Of a stretch of 7,645 nt of DNA, positions 1,894 through 7,645 are shown one piece after another (position 1 is the first letter of the stretch; the number at the start of each line of letters is the position of its first letter). The notes under the pieces are model-generated. The model had not been told where the DNA came from and did no database searches. It saw only the letters and a list, made by a program, of their open reading frames with translations. The translations under genes were made by a program, and so were the position numbers. The stretch spans positions 1 through 7,645 of the forward strand of contig CAJJNP010000163.1 of NCBI GenBank assembly GCA_905193145.1. Direction: 5' to 3'. This stretch comes from an uncultured Odoribacter sp. Its GTDB lineage: Bacteria > Bacteroidota > Bacteroidia > Bacteroidales > Marinifilaceae.

Positions 1894-1932
1894 AAAAAAA
1901 ACAAGCCGAGCTATTACACGGATAACTCGGCT
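1894..1932 (-). terminator. Rho-independent terminator of the minus-strand operon
   Basis: A seven-base stem, AGCCGAG (1904-1910) with CTCGGCT (1926-1932), encloses a 15-base loop. On the minus strand it is followed by a short spacer and eight Ts (complement of A 1894-1901). The T run is on the minus-strand side only, so it ends transcription of the membrane-protein gene whose stop lies at 1960. As a hairpin it may also help end transcription coming from the Rhs side. Confidence 0.8.
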
Positions 1933-1959
1933 CTCAGCTTGAAAAAATTACATCAAGTC

Positions 1960-2703
1960 TTAATCTCGTGGTATATCTTGAACTTGCAAGCATTTCTCTA
2001 CTTTGTATAAATAATACCTACATTTTATTATTACAAATGTTACTATTATACGAGAAATTACTATATGCCCTATGAATAGAATGAGGGGAAAGAGCAATAC
2101 AATCAAACTTATAACAACAAACGGGAACTCAAATTCAGAGAAAAACTTATAAGTCCAATCAAAGCTAACAATTCCAACTACAAATAGCGTAATAAAAAAT
2201 ATAAATCTAATATTTGACCATAGATTTCTACTATATTTCCTACAATCTTCTTGATAAAGGTTATAGCCCGATATAAATAGCTCTATAACTAAAACTATCT
2301 GAGAAGTTACTAAAATATAAGTTTTTACAAGTGCTTCATGTTGAGACCCAAACATCCCGATACAAAACAAGCATAAGAAACCGTATAATCCAGCATATAA
2401 TCCGATGAAACCACAACCTTCCAAATCAAGTTGGTTTTCATCAGTCAGATATTTTAAACGGCGATATGCCTTATCTAAATAGGCACTATTTAATATACAT
2501 TCACTATTCTCACTTTTTAGACTCTCTGTTATAATATCATTAGCACGAGACAATACCGCCCGTACCGACAACTTTAAATCTTTCTGATATTTACGATAAA
2601 TTTCAGTCAGTACATGCTTGTTATCAAGATAGTATAATCCAAAGTCAAAAGCAATTATAAATTGTATGAATGCAAGTAGATTAATACATTCTATTCCAGA
2701 CAT
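1960..2703 (-). CDS. Five-helix membrane protein, second gene of a two-gene operon
   Basis: A 247-residue protein that I do not recognise. From the ATG at 2703 it has about five hydrophobic segments: residues 4-25, 98-118, 128-147, 165-183 and 194-217. The last may run on to about 226. A roughly 70-residue hydrophilic, helix-forming, charged stretch lies between the first and second segments. A basic tail rich in Tyr, Lys and Arg follows the last helix. It is an inner-membrane protein with no enzyme motif I can see. A TTG at 2715 would extend it by four residues and overlap the preceding gene; I prefer the ATG, which lies four bases after that gene's stop and implies coupled translation. It shares the promoter and terminator of the LexA/UmuD-like gene. 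By position it could be a membrane effector controlled by that protein, or its partner in sensing; this is inference. Confidence 0.75.
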   Translation of the reverse strand: MSGIECINLLAFIQFIIAFDFGLYYLDNKHVLTEIYRKYQKDLKLSVRAVLSRANDIITESLKSENSECILNSAYLDKAYRRLKYLTDENQLDLEGCGFIGLYAGLYGFLCLFCIGMFGSQHEALVKTYILVTSQIVLVIELFISGYNLYQEDCRKYSRNLWSNIRFIFFITLFVVGIVSFDWTYKFFSEFEFPFVVISLIVLLFPLILFIGHIVISRIIVTFVIIKCRYYLYKVEKCLQVQDIPRD

Positions 2704-2707
2704 TTTT

Positions 2708-3400
2708 CTATTCAAGTTTTTTAGCTCTCCATTCTTCTCCGTTATGTTTTAATACATATTCAGCAACGTACTGTATTAAATCAACCGGATGGAAAGAATA
2801 GCGCAAATTCCCTTTACGATAAGTAACCGATAACATAAGTTCTTTCTTGTCTTTATAAAACCCAATAGCCTCATTATACTTGATTTCTAAGTTCTTTTGG
2901 TTTTCTTCCAAAAAGATACTATTGGTTATTTTTTTCAAAGAGGCTATCAATTTCTCGATAGAGCTTTCTACCGGAACTTTCAATAAGGTATGACGCAACT
3001 TATAATCAAACTTCAACTCTTTGTTTTTAGATTCATAGTATTCCTTATCAACAGCAATAACCACAAATTTTCCTTTCCCGATTAATTTTGCTGCATCGGC
3101 ATCTACTTTTCTGCATAGTAATTTATCACCATTAGAGATGTCTTCAGGTGACATAGAGGAGCCTTCAACAGTAAATATTAAGGGATTCTCAGATTGTTTA
3201 TACTTAGAAATGTCTAACATTGAATTTTCACACGGAATCCTATCTGGTAACATTTCAAGACCTTTCAACGGAGTTACACTCAACGTAGGATCTCCAGCCG
3301 CCACACTCATAGTACCATCGGCATTCATACCGTTGGTATGCACTTCTTTCCCAAAGGCAAAGTGATAAAGATTAGATACTAACTGTTTCAATTTCAACAT
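2708..3400 (-). CDS. LexA/UmuD-like (S24 family) autoprotease-type protein lacking a DNA-binding domain
   Basis: A 230-residue protein read from the ATG at 3400; the longer frame to 3472 would start inside the promoter. The first 33 residues are too short for a helix-turn-helix. They lead to SVAAGDPT (32-39), resembling the Ala-Gly self-cleavage site of LexA. Then comes IFTVEGSSMSP (75-85) with the Ser-Met of the S24 active site (S82), SNGD (89-92) matching the conserved turn, and KFVVIAVDKE (111-120), a typical strand. KLR (134-136) is the best place for the catalytic lysine, after an insertion of about 14 residues compared with LexA. Residues 143-230 are an extra C-terminal region ending in a predicted helix. 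LexA, UmuD and phage CI cleave themselves when stimulated by RecA filaments. If this one does too, it links DNA damage to the membrane protein encoded four bases downstream. An inactive S24-like fold is the main alternative. Confidence 0.55.
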   Translation of the reverse strand: MLKLKQLVSNLYHFAFGKEVHTNGMNADGTMSVAAGDPTLSVTPLKGLEMLPDRIPCENSMLDISKYKQSENPLIFTVEGSSMSPEDISNGDKLLCRKVDADAAKLIGKGKFVVIAVDKEYYESKNKELKFDYKLRHTLLKVPVESSIEKLIASLKKITNSIFLEENQKNLEIKYNEAIGFYKDKKELMLSVTYRKGNLRYSFHPVDLIQYVAEYVLKHNGEEWRAKKLE

Positions 3401-3441
3401 ATTAATTAATAGTATGCGTCTAAGCGCACATTTATGATTCG

Positions 3442-3472
3442 CAAAGTTAGCGTTTTTTCTCATAACTCGCAA
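3442..3472 (-). promoter_or_regulatory. Bacteroidota-type promoter for the autoprotease/membrane operon
   Basis: On the minus strand, TTG (3472-3470) is followed by a 20-base spacer and TAACTTTG (3449-3442). This matches the Bacteroidota primary sigma-factor consensus TTTG / TAnnTTTG. Transcription should begin near 3435 and leave a leader of about 35 bases before the ATG at 3400. It decides the start codon: the upstream in-frame candidates at 3472 and 3463 fall within the promoter. Confidence 0.75.
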
Positions 3473-3480
3473 GTTTATAG

Positions 3481-3765
3481 GGGTTAAACATCAATAATGC
3501 CATCGTATGAGGCCCTTGCCTGAACTGTAACAAGAGGATTACACAACAGCCCTCACTCACTAATAAAACATTCTACCATAAAAACAAAAAGAATGCAATG
3601 AATGATTACGATTTAACCTCTTTTGTTTAAAAGCCGGTTTGCTTTGCCTGTGATGAATTGAATAGCAGGATGAAAAAAGACTATGTAAGATAATATTTTT
3701 GTGAGGAGGACAGCCTGTAAGCAGTGTTTCTTCTATTTTGTCGGTTAATAAATTTAATTGATTGC
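3481..3765. other. Divergent intergenic region without a convincing gene
   Basis: This region separates the leftward operon from the rightward TssD gene. It is AT-rich. The one 72-codon minus-strand frame across it (3560-3778) has no recognisable motif, promoter or start signal. A TATTTTTG at 3694-3701 resembles a -7 element but has no TTG at the proper distance. I see no strong repeat, RNA gene or attachment site here. Confidence 0.5.
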
Positions 3766-3796
3766 TTGTTAAGTTCAAGGGAAAATTCTATATTTG
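3766..3796 (+). promoter_or_regulatory. Bacteroidota-type promoter for the TssD/Hcp gene
   Basis: TTG (3766-3768), a 20-base spacer and TATATTTG (3789-3796) match the Bacteroidota promoter consensus, with the same spacing as the promoter of the leftward operon. Transcription should begin near 3803, giving a leader of close to 90 bases before the ATG at 3890, longer than usual and containing two dyad structures. Confidence 0.7.
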
Positions 3797-3825
3797 CGAA
3801 ATATGATATCCTCCTTCTTGTCTTG

Positions 3826-3844
3826 AAAGCGGTCTGACTGCTTT
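3826..3844 (+). promoter_or_regulatory. Nine-base inverted repeat in the tssD leader, possible operator
   Basis: AAAGCGGTC and GACTGCTTT lie either side of a single T and are reverse complements in eight of nine positions. The one-base spacer makes this a better candidate for a dimeric DNA-binding protein than for an RNA hairpin, although the outer AAAGC/GCTTT could also pair in RNA. It lies just downstream of the predicted transcription start, where a bound repressor would block elongation. No cognate regulator is visible. Confidence 0.4.
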
Positions 3845-3870
3845 AACCAAGGCGAAATGTCTTGGTTTTT
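3845..3870 (+). terminator. Terminator-like hairpin in the tssD leader, possible attenuator
   Basis: AACCAAG (3845-3851) pairs with CTTGGTT (3861-3867) around a nine-base loop. The T run at 3866-3870 starts in the last two bases of the stem. The form is that of a rho-independent terminator, yet it lies between the tssD promoter and the ATG at 3890. It may act as an attenuator, be a leftover terminator, or only stabilise the leader. The stem holds only four G-C or C-G pairs, so its strength is moderate. Confidence 0.45.
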
Positions 3871-3889
3871 AATAAATAATAAGATCAGC

Positions 3890-4279
3890 ATGGCAGAATT
3901 AAAGGCAACCGTGTGCTTGCAAGGGAAGGATATAGAAGTGATTTCATCACATATTGAATTTAACCGCAAGACAGATAATAAAGGAAGGCCAGTGACAAAT
4001 GTTATTGGCGGACGTATTACCATAACCGTTGAATCTACCAGAGAAACTACTATTCTTGAAGCAATGGTAAACAGTCCTTTCAAAGCGATAAGCGGCAAGG
4101 TGATTTATTACAACACTAAGGATAATTCAATCTTTCGTGTCGTGGAGTTCAAATATGCGTATATCGTATATTACAAAGAGGTTTACAATGTTGACAGGAA
4201 ACGCCAAATGTATTCCACCATCACATTTTCTGCGGATATTATTATGATAGGAGACGCATATTTAAGCAATCAATGGTAA
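3890..4279 (+). CDS. tssD: Type VI secretion tube protein TssD (Hcp), Bacteroidota type
   Basis: The 129-residue product from the ATG at 3890 matches Bacteroidota TssD proteins in length and layout. It opens MAELKATVCLQGKDIEV, has the early strand arginine (FNRK), then GRPVTNVIGG, ITITVEST and EAMVNSPFKAISGKV, and ends with paired strands IVYYKE and YSTITFSADIIMIGDAY. These proteins stack as hexameric rings to form the tube expelled by the T6SS, and some variants carry small effectors within the ring. The start at 3890 is chosen because family members begin with MAxxA; the in-frame ATG at 3857 falls in a leader hairpin. It has its own promoter, and no other T6SS structural gene is visible, so it is an orphan copy, probably paired with cargo. 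It is somewhat Tyr- and Ile-rich for the family, suggesting divergence. Confidence 0.85.
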   Translation: MAELKATVCLQGKDIEVISSHIEFNRKTDNKGRPVTNVIGGRITITVESTRETTILEAMVNSPFKAISGKVIYYNTKDNSIFRVVEFKYAYIVYYKEVYNVDRKRQMYSTITFSADIIMIGDAYLSNQW

Positions 4280-4370
4280 GACTGACGATTCCTGCAAGCC
4301 TTTATTGGATCTTTCAAAGAAGAAACATGAAATTTAGTTGTTTGGATATTATTGTATTAAGAAATATCAC

Positions 4371-4378
4371 TAACTTTG
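4371..4378 (+). promoter_or_regulatory. Probable -7 promoter element for the KAP-like NTPase gene
   Basis: TAACTTTG is an exact match to TAnnTTTG and identical to the -7 element of the leftward operon. No TTG lies at the favoured 19-21-base spacing; the nearest, at 4352-4354 and 4342-4344, give 16 and 26 bases. Transcription would begin near 4385, leaving a leader of about 117 bases before 4502. The 222-base gap between tssD and the NTPase gene otherwise holds only a 72-codon frame that I reject. Confidence 0.5.
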
Positions 4379-4501
4379 TTCATTGTGGATGTGGTGATAA
4401 TGGATTTGCAGCGTCGTTTACTATTTCAATATTTAATGTTCTTATTGCTACATTTTTGTTTTCCAATGGAGTTAAAATAGAATTATGTTAATAACAAAGG
4501 T

Positions 4502-6391
4502 ATGAATACTTTGATTCTTGATTTTTTAAACAGCTATGCTGATAATACTAATCCTCAGTATGCCGTGATGCTGAAAGGAAAATGGGGATGTGGCAAAACT
4601 CATCTTATAAAAGAATGGAAGAAGAGGTTTGATGGAACCGCAGATACCGACGAGGAAATTACGCTAAAGCCCATTTATATTTCGACCTATGGAATGGATA
4701 GCGTGAATGACATCAAGACAGCTATAGATAGGGAATTAAATCCTTTCTTCTATTCGAAAACGGGGCGTTTCATAAAGGGAGTTTTGAAATTAGCCGGTAA
4801 GGTAGTCTTCAAGACGAGTATGGATTTTAATGAAGACTCTAAAGAGGATGGTTCATTTTCCGCAACACTGGATTCGTTGTCGTTACTACAAGTGAAAGAC
4901 GACAGTATAAAAGGTGTAAAGTTTCTGATATTCGATGACATCGAAAGGTGCCTGATAGAGATGAAGGAATTGTTAGGCTTTATCAACTATTTTGTAGAAC
5001 ATTGTAATTGTCATGTTGTCGTAATTGGAGATGAGAACCACCTTGAAGAACTTCCCAAGGCTGTATTGGATGAGTTTAAGGAAAAGACCATAGGTAGGGA
5101 ATTTGAAATACAACCTGACATAGAAGAAGCCATCGAATACTTCCTTGGCGAAGTACCGGTATCCGATTATTTGAAAGAAATGCGTGATTTCATTATTGCC
5201 TGTTTTATGTGCACAAAATCCGATAACTTACGGGTTTTGAGACAATGTTTATATGATTTTAAAAGCCACTTAAACAAACTTCCTCCCGAGCTGGTTGAAA
5301 AGGATAATATCTTTCTTAAAAATATTCTTGGGTCATTTATTGCAGTGTATGCAGAGTATAATAATAGTGAGAACAAAGAGGTAATTTGTAATTGGAGTAG
5401 AGATTGTCGGATTTCACTACTCCAAGATAATAATGAAGATAAGCAAAGGATACATCATCTAAGGGAAAAATATCACTCTTTGAACAAGGAGTTAATTTAT
5501 AATGTCTTAAATCCGGAGTATGTTACGGCTATTATACAATATATTATCACAGGTGCTCCACTTGTAGAATTTATTGTTACGGAGATAAGGGATAAGCAAA
5601 AAGAATTGAAACCTTGGGAAATGCTATCCGGCTTTTTCGATATGGAGCAGCAAAAACTTGAAAGAATTTGTCAAGATACTATAACATCCATATTGGATAG
5701 AGAGATAAAAGATGCTTATCAACTTGGTTATAGTATTGCGTATCTATCATACTTTCACGCTATTGGCATTTTCTATTTTATACAGGCTTATGTCTCTTTA
5801 ATAAAAGTAAGAATAGCAGAAATGATTGATAGCCAAACCTGTTTAGAGGAACTTTATCAGCTAAGAGGGCTTTTTATTAGTGGATGTAATTATGTAACCA
5901 CAGATTCCAAAACCCCAATAACGGATGATATTGTGGACTATTTCTTGCAGAAGATGAAATCAAAGATAAATGAGTTGCCGGATCAAATGCAAAAAGCACT
6001 GCGTAATTTGACTGAAGGAACAGTAGAACAACTTATAATCATAGACAGATTGCCTTATCCAGATAAAAGTTGTACATACGAACTTCGTGCTATATTTGCA
6101 TATGAAGATGCCAATGCTCTTTTTGATGCTATCTGCAAACTAAGCAATAAAAGCAGAAATACTTTTACGCAATTTCTTGCTTATCATTATAATTTTGACT
6201 ATGATTTACAAGATGTGGGAGACAGATATAAGGCAGATGTTCCTTGTTTACTCAAGTTGAAAGATTTGGTCGGTAATGAAATCAGTATATCAAAAGGAGT
6301 GGATAAACTTGCCTTCATAAGATTAAAAGATGCCTTGATTGAAGCTATTAGGAGGTGTGAAGGCAAAAGTGATACATTGCCACCAATGTAG
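4502..6391 (+). CDS. KAP-like P-loop NTPase
   Basis: A 629-residue protein whose N-terminal third is a P-loop NTPase. Walker A is GKWGCGKT (26-33). Walker B is KFLIFDDIERC (140-150), with paired aspartates 145/146 followed by Glu-Arg, as in KAP NTPases. A further strand, HVVVIGD, leads into an alpha-helical region that fills the rest of the protein. A modest hydrophobic stretch at 82-107 sits where many KAP proteins have membrane helices, but it is too polar for certain insertion, so the protein may be soluble or membrane-associated. KAP proteins include PifA, which blocks phage T7 on the F plasmid. An anti-phage or signalling role is therefore plausible; a link with the TssD gene 222 bases upstream is less certain because this gene seems to have its own promoter. 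The ATG at 4502 follows AAAGG, a possible ribosome-binding site. No nuclease or protease domain is visible in the C-terminal part. Confidence 0.75.
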   Translation: MNTLILDFLNSYADNTNPQYAVMLKGKWGCGKTHLIKEWKKRFDGTADTDEEITLKPIYISTYGMDSVNDIKTAIDRELNPFFYSKTGRFIKGVLKLAGKVVFKTSMDFNEDSKEDGSFSATLDSLSLLQVKDDSIKGVKFLIFDDIERCLIEMKELLGFINYFVEHCNCHVVVIGDENHLEELPKAVLDEFKEKTIGREFEIQPDIEEAIEYFLGEVPVSDYLKEMRDFIIACFMCTKSDNLRVLRQCLYDFKSHLNKLPPELVEKDNIFLKNILGSFIAVYAEYNNSENKEVICNWSRDCRISLLQDNNEDKQRIHHLREKYHSLNKELIYNVLNPEYVTAIIQYIITGAPLVEFIVTEIRDKQKELKPWEMLSGFFDMEQQKLERICQDTITSILDREIKDAYQLGYSIAYLSYFHAIGIFYFIQAYVSLIKVRIAEMIDSQTCLEELYQLRGLFISGCNYVTTDSKTPITDDIVDYFLQKMKSKINELPDQMQKALRNLTEGTVEQLIIIDRLPYPDKSCTYELRAIFAYEDANALFDAICKLSNKSRNTFTQFLAYHYNFDYDLQDVGDRYKADVPCLLKLKDLVGNEISISKGVDKLAFIRLKDALIEAIRRCEGKSDTLPPM

Positions 6392-6577
6392 AAGCTAAAA
6401 ATGGCGTATCGCAAAAAACGGATATGCGATGAAAGAATATTATCTCTATTTGACTAAAAACAGAAGATATTAATAGCTATAAATGAGAATGGGTGGTGGC
6501 GGGGAATCGGGAGGTTATAAAGGGAGAAAGGATGCCATAAAAGAGTAGAGCCGTCGGCAGACCGGAGCGCAAAAAAA
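6392..6577. other. Convergent gap between the NTPase gene and the helicase terminator
   Basis: No gene is seen here. A weak dyad after the NTPase stop (ATCGC at about 6408-6412 with GCGAT farther on) has no T run, so I cannot name a plus-strand terminator for the NTPase gene. The second half, from about 6490, is distinctly richer in G and in GC, and probably marks the join between the AT-rich cargo and the conjugative-element backbone. Confidence 0.4.
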
Positions 6578-6612
6578 TCCCTCTGCCCAGTCATCGCGAC
6601 CATGCAGAGGGA
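6571..6612 (-). terminator. Rho-independent terminator of the helicase gene
   Basis: A nine-base perfect stem, TCCCTCTGC (6578-6586) with GCAGAGGGA (6604-6612), has a 17-base loop. On the minus strand it is followed at once by seven Ts (complement of 6571-6577). It lies 20 bases beyond the helicase stop codon end at 6633. Confidence 0.85.
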
Positions 6613-6632
6613 ACGGTTGAATTATGATTATG

Positions 6633-7595
6633 TCAAGCAGCTTCGGCAATAGCTTCGTGTTTGGCAGCCTGCGGTTGTTCGGCCTCTTTCAGGCTTTCAT
6701 CAATCCTGTGCTGGAGTTCCTTACATTCCTGTTTGAGCCTTGACAGTTCATCGGCTTTGCTCCACTGACGGCAAATGATGTCCTGCAATGTGGGAATTTC
6801 GCTTTCTATCCGCTCTACCGCCTTTTGTTGCTTCTCGATAAGAGAGGGCAATTTGCTTAATGCTCCATGCGGATATTGTGCCGACTCAACAAAACCAAGC
6901 GGCAGCGCACCGCTCAGACCGCATCGGTATTTCAATCCACTTATACCCTCTACAAAGAATGTATTGCGGTCAAACGTACCGTCCATATTATACTCGCTAT
7001 GCACCAACAAGTTTAGCCCTGCATACGTGCCAACTGTACCATACGCTCCGTTGCGGTAGGTCTTGGCGATACGGTGCAACTCCCGGCCAACTTCCTCGGT
7101 ACTGGCTTGCGGCAAGTTCAAAAGCAGGGTTGCCTTTGCCCCATTATACGAGTTGATGTATTCCAAATCCCTCTTGAAATCGGCCTCAGTACGCTTTGCC
7201 TTTTCGATTTCTCCCTGACCGGCAGCTATTTTACGCTCGGCACGGATGCGTTCTTTCTTGAAAATAGCCTGTTCCTTTTCAAGCTGCATAATCTTGTTGT
7301 CGAGCTTCGTCTTGTTCAGCAAGTCGTTATTGCCTGACAGAATAGCCACGAACTCGGCGAAGTTCATACCGCTGTCCTCATCCATGCCTCCCTCGTCAAT
7401 ACGACGCACGGCGATTGTGCCGTTGTTAATTTGATTGATAAACATCTGCTTGTTTCTCAACAGATTGAACTTGTAGGCGTCAAGGGTCTTTTCCGTGCCG
7501 TAAATTACAATATCTACCACATTGCCACCCCACAGCTTTACAGTGTTGCCTTTGCGTACCGCCCTGCCGTTTCGTTGCTCCATGTCAGCAGGTCG
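6633..7595 (-). CDS. C-terminal exon of a large SNF2-type helicase/DNA methylase of conjugative elements (5' partial)
   Basis: The 320-residue segment begins RPADMEQRNGRAVRKGN, which is helicase superfamily 2 motif VI (QRxGRxxRxG) in the form typical of the very large (well over 1,000 residues) helicase/N6-methylase proteins of Bacteroidales conjugative elements. Next comes the family-like stretch IVIYGTEKTLDAYKF and a region holding FAEFVAILSGN. Two coiled-coil stretches rich in Glu, Lys and Arg lie at about residues 100-150 and 250-305, with a compact domain between. The methylase and the helicase core would lie upstream, beyond the window. Family members normally read a Leu-Asp-x-Pro-Trp just before RPxD; here that is replaced by group II intron sequence, so the gene is split and this is the downstream exon. 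An apparent ATG at 7583 is an internal methionine. Such proteins probably protect or remodel the element's DNA after transfer. The gene is more GC-rich than the cargo to its left. Confidence 0.8.
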   Translation of the reverse strand, partial: RPADMEQRNGRAVRKGNTVKLWGGNVVDIVIYGTEKTLDAYKFNLLRNKQMFINQINNGTIAVRRIDEGGMDEDSGMNFAEFVAILSGNNDLLNKTKLDNKIMQLEKEQAIFKKERIRAERKIAAGQGEIEKAKRTEADFKRDLEYINSYNGAKATLLLNLPQASTEEVGRELHRIAKTYRNGAYGTVGTYAGLNLLVHSEYNMDGTFDRNTFFVEGISGLKYRCGLSGALPLGFVESAQYPHGALSKLPSLIEKQQKAVERIESEIPTLQDIICRQWSKADELSRLKQECKELQHRIDESLKEAEQPQAAKHEAIAEAA

Positions 7596-7645
7596 ATCGG
7601 GTAGGTCAAGGGCATTACTGCCCTCTTCCCCCCTCAGAACCGTAC
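7596..7645 (-). mobile_element. 3' end of a group II intron (partial domain V and domain VI)
   Basis: Read on the minus strand, the window edge starts GTACGGTTCT, the standard 3' strand of domain V of many bacterial group II introns. A hairpin follows, with GCCC/GGGC arms at 7620-7623 and 7610-7613 extended by an A-T and a G-T pair, as in domain VI. The end reads CCTACCCGAT: it closes with the usual AY, and the A at 7602 lies seven bases from the end, where the branch-point adenosine belongs. The next base, 7595, begins the codons RPAD of the helicase, exactly where the family's conserved sequence resumes. The rest of the intron, with any reverse transcriptase, lies outside the window. Splicing would restore the helicase message. 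Confidence 0.8.

Follow-up and report, generated by a model that had tools for sequence, protein, structure and literature searches.

An S24 protein of Bacteroidales encoded with a membrane protein: a putative membrane-coupled, UmuD-like switch

Self-cleavage by S24 proteins is known so far for switching repressors and a polymerase subunit. UmuD is encoded beside the protein that it controls, UmuC. In the available text of PMC8565304, self-cleavage is the known chemistry of the LexA/UmuD/CI family, and Bacteroidetes LexA proteins carry a helix-turn-helix (HTH) of the phage-repressor type. IrvR is a published exception in the available text of PMC7101444, i.e., a LexA-like protein outside the RecA paradigm. 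Here, we describe a 7,645-nucleotide stretch of DNA (the window; contig CAJJNP010000163.1 of assembly GCA_905193145.1, from an uncultured Odoribacter sp.), the minus strand of which encodes an S24 protein without a DNA-binding domain and, beginning 4 nucleotides past its stop codon, a membrane protein. The simplest reading of this pair is a UmuD-type switch with a membrane partner; i.e., a UmuD-like S24 protein and a membrane effector would form a membrane-coupled S24 switch, to which we give a probability of roughly 0.55. The features of the pair are as follows (loci are denoted by L numbers and proteins by P numbers).

1903..1933, minus strand: intrinsic terminator with a 12-bp stem and a T-run
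1960..2703, minus strand: membrane protein of 247 amino acids (aa) with five predicted transmembrane (TM) helices and an FDFG motif in TM1
2708..3400, minus strand: S24 (LexA/UmuD-like) protein of 230 aa without an HTH, soluble form, with its ATG at 3400
2789..2830, minus strand: family-specific mark S191-x-T193 ... S202-x-H204, invariant across 15 separate-locus proteins
2846..2974, minus strand: helical insertion within the predicted S24 fold, residues ~143 to 185, with approximate limits from the secondary structure of the model and the range of the LexA alignment
2999..3001, minus strand: codon of Lys134, the predicted general base, invariant in three alignments
3155..3157, minus strand: codon of Ser82, the predicted nucleophile, invariant in three alignments
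3293..3298, minus strand: codons of Ala35-Gly36, the predicted self-cleavage site, invariant in three alignments and aligned to the VAAG site of LexA
3401..3472, minus strand: in-frame extension upstream of the S24 gene (251/254-aa frame) that overlaps the promoter and is probably 5' untranslated
3442..3472, minus strand: Bacteroidales-type promoter, TTG-N20-TAACTTTG, kept in L001 and L005

The first-pass annotation of the window had named an Ala-Gly site, a Ser-Met motif, an NGD turn, and a KLR motif in the S24 protein, and all four are present in the 230-aa minus-strand open reading frame (ORF) as V33-A34-A35-G36-D37-P38, G80-S81-S82-M83, N90-G91-D92, and K134-L135-R136, respectively. Pfam returns Peptidase_S24 alone, just below the threshold (22.6 versus 23.3 bits, E = 8.7e-5), and PHROGs returns one weak match to a repressor profile, which is confined to the S24 part. 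No HTH was found in the Pfam or NCBIfam searches, and the AlphaFold model (predicted local distance difference test score, pLDDT, of 86.7) has just one N-terminal helix, of low confidence, ahead of the Ala-Gly strand; the reported absence of an HTH therefore stands, and an ordinary LexA or CI repressor is excluded, as had been argued. The arm comprises 35 residues, including this one helix in the model, and ends at the conserved Ala-Gly site. In the structure comparison, residues 28 to 220 of the model align with residues 77 to 199 of LexA, which supports the S24-like fold expected from the motifs, and the model shares its clan fold with type I signal peptidase (S26). Since two helices (148 to 156 and 165 to 182) sit in between the LexA-matching parts, the last 88 residues are not a separate domain, and the extra C-terminal domain proposed for them gives way to an S24 fold that contains an insertion. 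A motif had hinted at a C-terminal domain of its own, WYL-like or other, an idea that was abandoned after this comparison.

The homologues comprise 57 proteins from a first search and a further 40, mostly distant, from a second. Across the window protein and 35 of the 57, the residues V33, A35, G36, D37, P38, G80, S82, M83, G91, K134, L135, and R136, among others, are invariant. A 35-row alignment of the window protein, 33 of the 40 mostly distant relatives, and L014 (31% mean column identity) leaves A35, G36, V78, G80, S82, K134, R136, S191, T193, S202, and H204 invariant, and the same residues, together with I88, are shared by 15 separate-locus proteins at 29% identity; the protein of a sixteenth locus, L076, has the same marks in an edge frame. 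The Ser-Lys dyad and the Ala-Gly pair are invariant in 36 of 36 rows, 35 of 35 rows, and 15 of 15 loci, so that the conservation of S82, K134, and the Ala-Gly pair presupposed by the first-pass annotation is borne out in all three alignments. By analogy with the known chemistry of the LexA/UmuD/CI family, self-cleavage of the window protein at Ala35-Gly36 is likely. S-x-T followed by S-x-H, both after the predicted catalytic serine, occurs in 30 of 30 family proteins versus none of 24 UmuD-like proteins of Bacteroidales, so that, within this comparison, the mark belongs to the family alone. All 24 UmuD-like proteins have AGF as the Ala-Gly context, and the columns of Lys134 are gapped in 22 of the 24 rows, so that this column comparison alone is insufficient to exclude an ordinary UmuD. 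A quick tree separates the S24 family from the UmuD-like proteins with low support (0.28).

Pairing was counted over 16 distinct loci, each identified from its S24 protein and not from its partner. The soluble form is encoded at six of them (the window type, with L001, L005, and L006; L055; L056; L059, with L004; L060, with L002 and L003; and L072), and a membrane-anchored form, described below, at the other ten (L057, L058, L071, and L073 to L079). A membrane gene of 237 to 268 aa lies downstream of the soluble form in five of six loci (five helices by reading, four or five by script), whereas the ORF after the S24 gene of L056 is of 101 aa with one TM segment; the anchored form has a membrane gene of 131 to 188 aa upstream in 10 of 10 loci. 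A neighboring membrane protein with at least two predicted TM segments is found in 15 of the 16 loci, the exception being L056, and the gap between the pair genes ranges from -38 to +41 nucleotides in the 15 loci listed. Under a uniform rule (same strand, 90 to 300 aa, at least two TM segments, within 60 nucleotides), such a neighbor is present in 14 of 15 family loci versus 3 of 24 UmuD-like control loci, L076 being unscored with its S24 gene at a contig end; the stable pairing anticipated for the two genes is hence upheld. Of the UmuD-like controls, 15 have at least one ORF close by on the same strand; in 11 of these, it is of 416 to 449 aa, the size of UmuC, and has no TM segment. Both the S24 and partner genes are under purifying selection. 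The tight arrangement with a small membrane protein, the accessory distribution, and the mobile element would also suit an arrangement of the toxin-antitoxin kind. The S24 protein would then bind and neutralize a toxic membrane protein, and cleavage would be a decay route that needs no specific signal; however, the conserved dyad and site imply a regulated event, and we regard this explanation as very unlikely.

The promoter at 3472 to 3442, which we take to fit the Bacteroidales consensus, and the terminator stem at 1933 to 1903 bracket the pair, in agreement with the claim that the operon has its own promoter and terminator. A loose form of the promoter pattern has six matches in the window versus about one expected. 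In-frame starts further upstream of the ATG at 3400 would give a protein of 251 to 254 aa, and many database entries for the homologues use one of these two frames. The 230-aa start is preferred, though unproven, because the promoter falls within the longer frame and because TAnnTTTG boxes are located shortly upstream of the shorter start in L056, L059, L060, and L003 (the box lies upstream of the operon in L058); the longer start is still possible, since the extension is free of indels among close homologues. An inverted repeat, TGCGC-TTAG-ACGCA, was observed between the promoter and the S24 start codon (3413 to 3430), with one arm altered in L001.

In the second homologue set (with P0142 excluded), 30 of the 39 proteins tested have a TM helix ahead of the Ala-Gly site; seven of the other nine start late and look N-terminally short, and two (P0104 and P0106) are of the soluble form. 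The distance from the end of the helix to the Ala-Gly site is 6 to 28 residues. Lys and Arg are more numerous after than before the helix in all 30 anchored proteins, so that the catalytic domain of this form should face the cytosol, and cleavage at the Ala-Gly site would free it from the membrane. No TM helix was found by hydropathy in the window S24 protein. The short arm helix of the soluble form scores as amphipathic in P0046, P0048, and P0052 among 11 proteins tested (at most 0.4% of shuffles as high, where the best window was chosen and the shuffles were not maximized). It is conceivable that the S24 domain acts instead as a trans-acting protease, cutting the membrane partner or another protein in the manner of a signal peptidase, with its own Ala-Gly pair incidental. 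This explanation is very unlikely: the Ala-Gly pair persists in all 16 loci while identity elsewhere falls to ~20%, the window protein has it in a LexA-like VAAG context, and the catalytic domain is predicted to be cytosolic, opposite to that of signal peptidases.

The UmuD-type switch with a membrane partner can be outlined as follows. The S24 protein would resemble UmuD in having a LexA-type core with a Ser-Lys dyad, an Ala-Gly site, and a short N-terminal arm, and in lacking a DNA-binding domain. The arm may hold this core to the membrane and to the membrane protein of the pair; the tether would be the anchoring helix in one branch and, in the branch of the window, the short N-terminal helix or the five-helix partner. 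A signal, either RecA filaments on single-stranded DNA or another cue, would favor the cleavable conformation, upon which the S24 protein would cut itself between Ala35 and Gly36, and the processed core would let go of or alter the membrane protein. The membrane protein would be the effector, acting by altered envelope permeability or growth arrest. The Ala-Gly cutting site is retained in distant relatives, as is a membrane partner, which suggests that the pair responds to stress or damage by switching at the membrane, not on DNA. More tentatively, and with something short of an even chance, we propose that such two-gene systems of Bacteroidales have moved S24 self-cleavage from DNA to the membrane: the S24 protein would be held at the inner membrane by a cleavable helix or by its partner, damage or infection would free it and switch the effector, and DNA damage would thereby reach the envelope without transcription.

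In the 247-aa partner itself, a helical hairpin follows TM1 and is judged cytosolic from its charges. Five helices were counted by manual reading, and the hydropathy script gives seven for the 251-aa frame and four or five in full-length relatives; a structure search with the partner model (pLDDT 71) gave no convincing solved relative. The small partners of the anchored form have an Asp in the second helix in nine of nine aligned proteins by manual reading, as well as in L075.

Several results weigh against the proposed switch. The N-terminal helix of the window S24 protein shows no significant amphipathicity (39% of shuffles score as high), and its membrane role therefore rests on relatives. 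Foldseek alone finds nothing below E = 0.001 for the S24 model (the best hit, LexA, has 0.042). The partners are diverse: script counts scatter from two to five helices in the small partners, which have four by manual reading of the alignment, and the fully invariant columns of that alignment are M1 and one Trp only. The two partner families were unmatched in the profile comparison (probability of 0.1 to 0.2%), in which no homology was found; the partner of L072 matches that of the window weakly (pairwise E = 0.009, N-terminus only), so that the five-helix equivalence is one of count only; and the partner of L056 is short, its family not being recovered there by tblastn. The partner profile is found in 3 of 393 Bacteroidales genomes, one match being convincing, versus four clear members for the S24 profile. 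At L057 (2454 to 3580), an anchored-form pair lies among ribosomal-protein genes, an odd site for a suicide module. Lastly, Bacteroidetes SOS motifs, taken from the available text of PMC8565304, were sought in 10 upstream regions, of which several belong to one element and none to L071 to L079; CTAA-N5-TTAG (with up to one mismatch) and exact GGA-N5-TCC are absent from all 10, and GGA-N5-TCC with one mismatch occurs upstream in L059, L060, and L003. At this stringency, induction of the S24 gene by those repressors is improbable, a result without bearing on RecA-driven cleavage of the S24 protein. By analogy with the exception of IrvR (PMC7101444, available text), RecA need not be the trigger.

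The S24 family is accessory. A broader S24 profile matches 63 of the 393 genomes at E = 1e-3, with the four clear members mentioned above, and a further 26 loci read among these genomes are UmuD-like or repressor-like. In a Bacteroidota sample, the S24 profile matches 4 of 395 at E = 1e-7, two being ordinary S24 proteins; narrower genome groups, with the center genome counted, give 1 of 3, 1 of 101, 2 of 149, 4 of 81, and 7 of 61. Kept out of the family counts were L015, L034, and L050 (repressor-type N-terminal extensions), L051 (without the family mark), and L023 with 24 further loci (UmuD-like); L017 and L018, matched by the partner profile at E = 5e-4 to 7e-4, were not accepted as relatives. 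The pair occurs at 97% identity in plasmid-collection records that represent three species, of which two share protein accessions, as expected from the transfer of GA1-type elements described in the available text of PMC8102008. Plasmid records gave no match for P0131, and phage records none for P0001 or P0141. Viral contigs contain one matching locus, the genes of which resemble a GA1-like element, and no match for the anchored form.

The order of genes in the window is the 3' part of mhgA, a KAP nucleoside triphosphatase (NTPase), tssD, the pair, an FRG remnant, and Rhs pieces, and it is the same in L001 and L005. Two neighbors are listed for context only.

3857..4279, plus strand: TssD/Hcp, the tube protein of the type VI secretion system (T6SS), divergent neighbor (PF17642, E = 8.9e-33)
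4502..6391, plus strand: KAP-family P-loop NTPase, PADLOC candidate defense family PDC-S49

The 3' part of mhgA, tssD, and the Rhs-type genes are those expected of the GA1 T6SS integrative element found in gut Bacteroidales, and the window is apparently a piece of a GA1-like element. The words "S24" and "peptidase" are absent from the main text of PMC8102008; in the available text of PMC4714493, "peptidase" does not occur, and the occurrences of "S24" are strain names. T6SS genes adjoin the pair in 3 of the 16 loci, i.e., TssD in the window, VgrG in L073, and one of each on either side of the pair in L074, where the anchored-form pair lies between tssD and vgrG on one strand throughout (2886 to 6760), and a T6SS link is possible in these three separate lineages. 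They, together with at least five loci in or beside polysaccharide-type clusters by ORF reading (L055, L056, L060, L077, and L079) and the purifying selection on both genes, favor the idea that the pair regulates or assists the cell envelope or T6SS and is not an immune module, with the S24 protein sensing damage or stress and acting on a membrane protein that influences secretion, surface polysaccharide, or permeability. The patchy distribution (4 clear members in 393 genomes) and the differing neighbors fit poorly with a fixed partner pathway, and we consider this idea unlikely. The great differences in setting suggest that the pair is a self-contained module.

Seven of the 16 loci have PADLOC matches (E of 1e-5 or lower) at a distance of at most ~1.2 kb: PDC-S49 for the window and L060; PDC-M29A/B for L055; AbiH for L056; HEC-02 and HEC-04/ATPase types for L071; NsnB, NsnC, and PDC-S05 for L072; and cll for L078. 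None was found in 10 further genes of L055 and L056, among ten neighbors of L058, L059, L075, L076, L077, and L079, or in two neighbors of L073; the scan excluded L057 and L074. These matches are candidates, not systems, because AAA-type ATPases match many PADLOC models. The window and L060/L003 each have a KAP NTPase close to the pair, and the two NTPases are related; in L060, a promoter-like sequence separates the KAP gene from the pair; KAP as an obligatory third member was rejected, with no KAP match among the neighbors scanned at other loci (not all were scanned). The AbiH-family gene of L056 lies beside the S24 gene and the 101-aa partner frame (5172 to 6609). The genes flanking the pair of L057 are presumably rpsJ and rplC, and the anchored-form pair of L058 (1716 to 5074) is on the same strand as recA, ~1.2 kb upstream of it; the ribosomal genes and recA do not point to a defense or suicide role.

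At the edges of the window, the minus strand at 6633 to 7645 carries the C-terminal part of mhgA, the GA1 methylase-helicase gene, joined at ~7596 to what resembles a group II intron at its 3' end. An ltrA-containing intron occupies this junction in L005 (103 bases at 98%; Rfam RF00029 at 3968 to 4044 of L005), and the window itself gave no Rfam match. Frequent disruption of mhgA is reported in the available text of PMC8102008. The plus strand holds an Rhs-core fragment with an Imm9 immunity gene (9 to 1057; PF15587, E = 1.8e-28), followed by an Rhs C-terminal cassette with a GIY-YIG-like end and the C-terminal remnant of an FRG-domain gene (1146 to 1879). The FRG-domain gene is full length in L005 (9719 to 11203), and the window arrangement looks like a cassette exchange.

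A conserved membrane-coupled S24 branch, if true, would put the same chemistry to use for post-translational control at the membrane and would provide Bacteroidales with a rapid response to DNA damage or infection. The copy in the window is carried by a T6SS element that is mobile among gut Bacteroidales, and defense candidates lie beside several relatives. The chemistry and the fold are already known, and the membrane coupling is undescribed in the searched literature, among the matches listed; no such S24-membrane pair is named in those matches, a scope with subscription papers mostly outside it and supplements excluded. Compared with LexA and CI repressors, including the noncanonical Bacteroidetes LexA (PMC8565304, available text), the window protein has the S24 fold, the Ala-Gly site, and the dyad in common but lacks a DNA-binding domain and is coupled to a membrane protein. 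IrvR of Streptococcus mutans likewise stands outside the RecA paradigm but is a transcription regulator (PMC7101444, available text). Type I signal peptidase shares the clan fold and, with the sister (anchored) branch, an N-terminal membrane anchor, whereas the S24 family has a predicted cytosolic catalytic domain and a conserved internal Ala-Gly site. The catalytic domain of type I signal peptidase lies outside the cytoplasm. UmuD resembles the window protein in its S24 core, short N-terminal arm, lack of an HTH, Ser-Lys dyad, Ala-Gly site, and location beside a (here putative) controlled protein. On the other hand, the partner here is a membrane protein and not a Y-family polymerase, the S24 protein carries a helical insertion of ~43 residues, and the S-x-T/S-x-H mark of its family is absent from the 24 UmuD-like proteins compared; an ordinary UmuD is excluded by these three differences.
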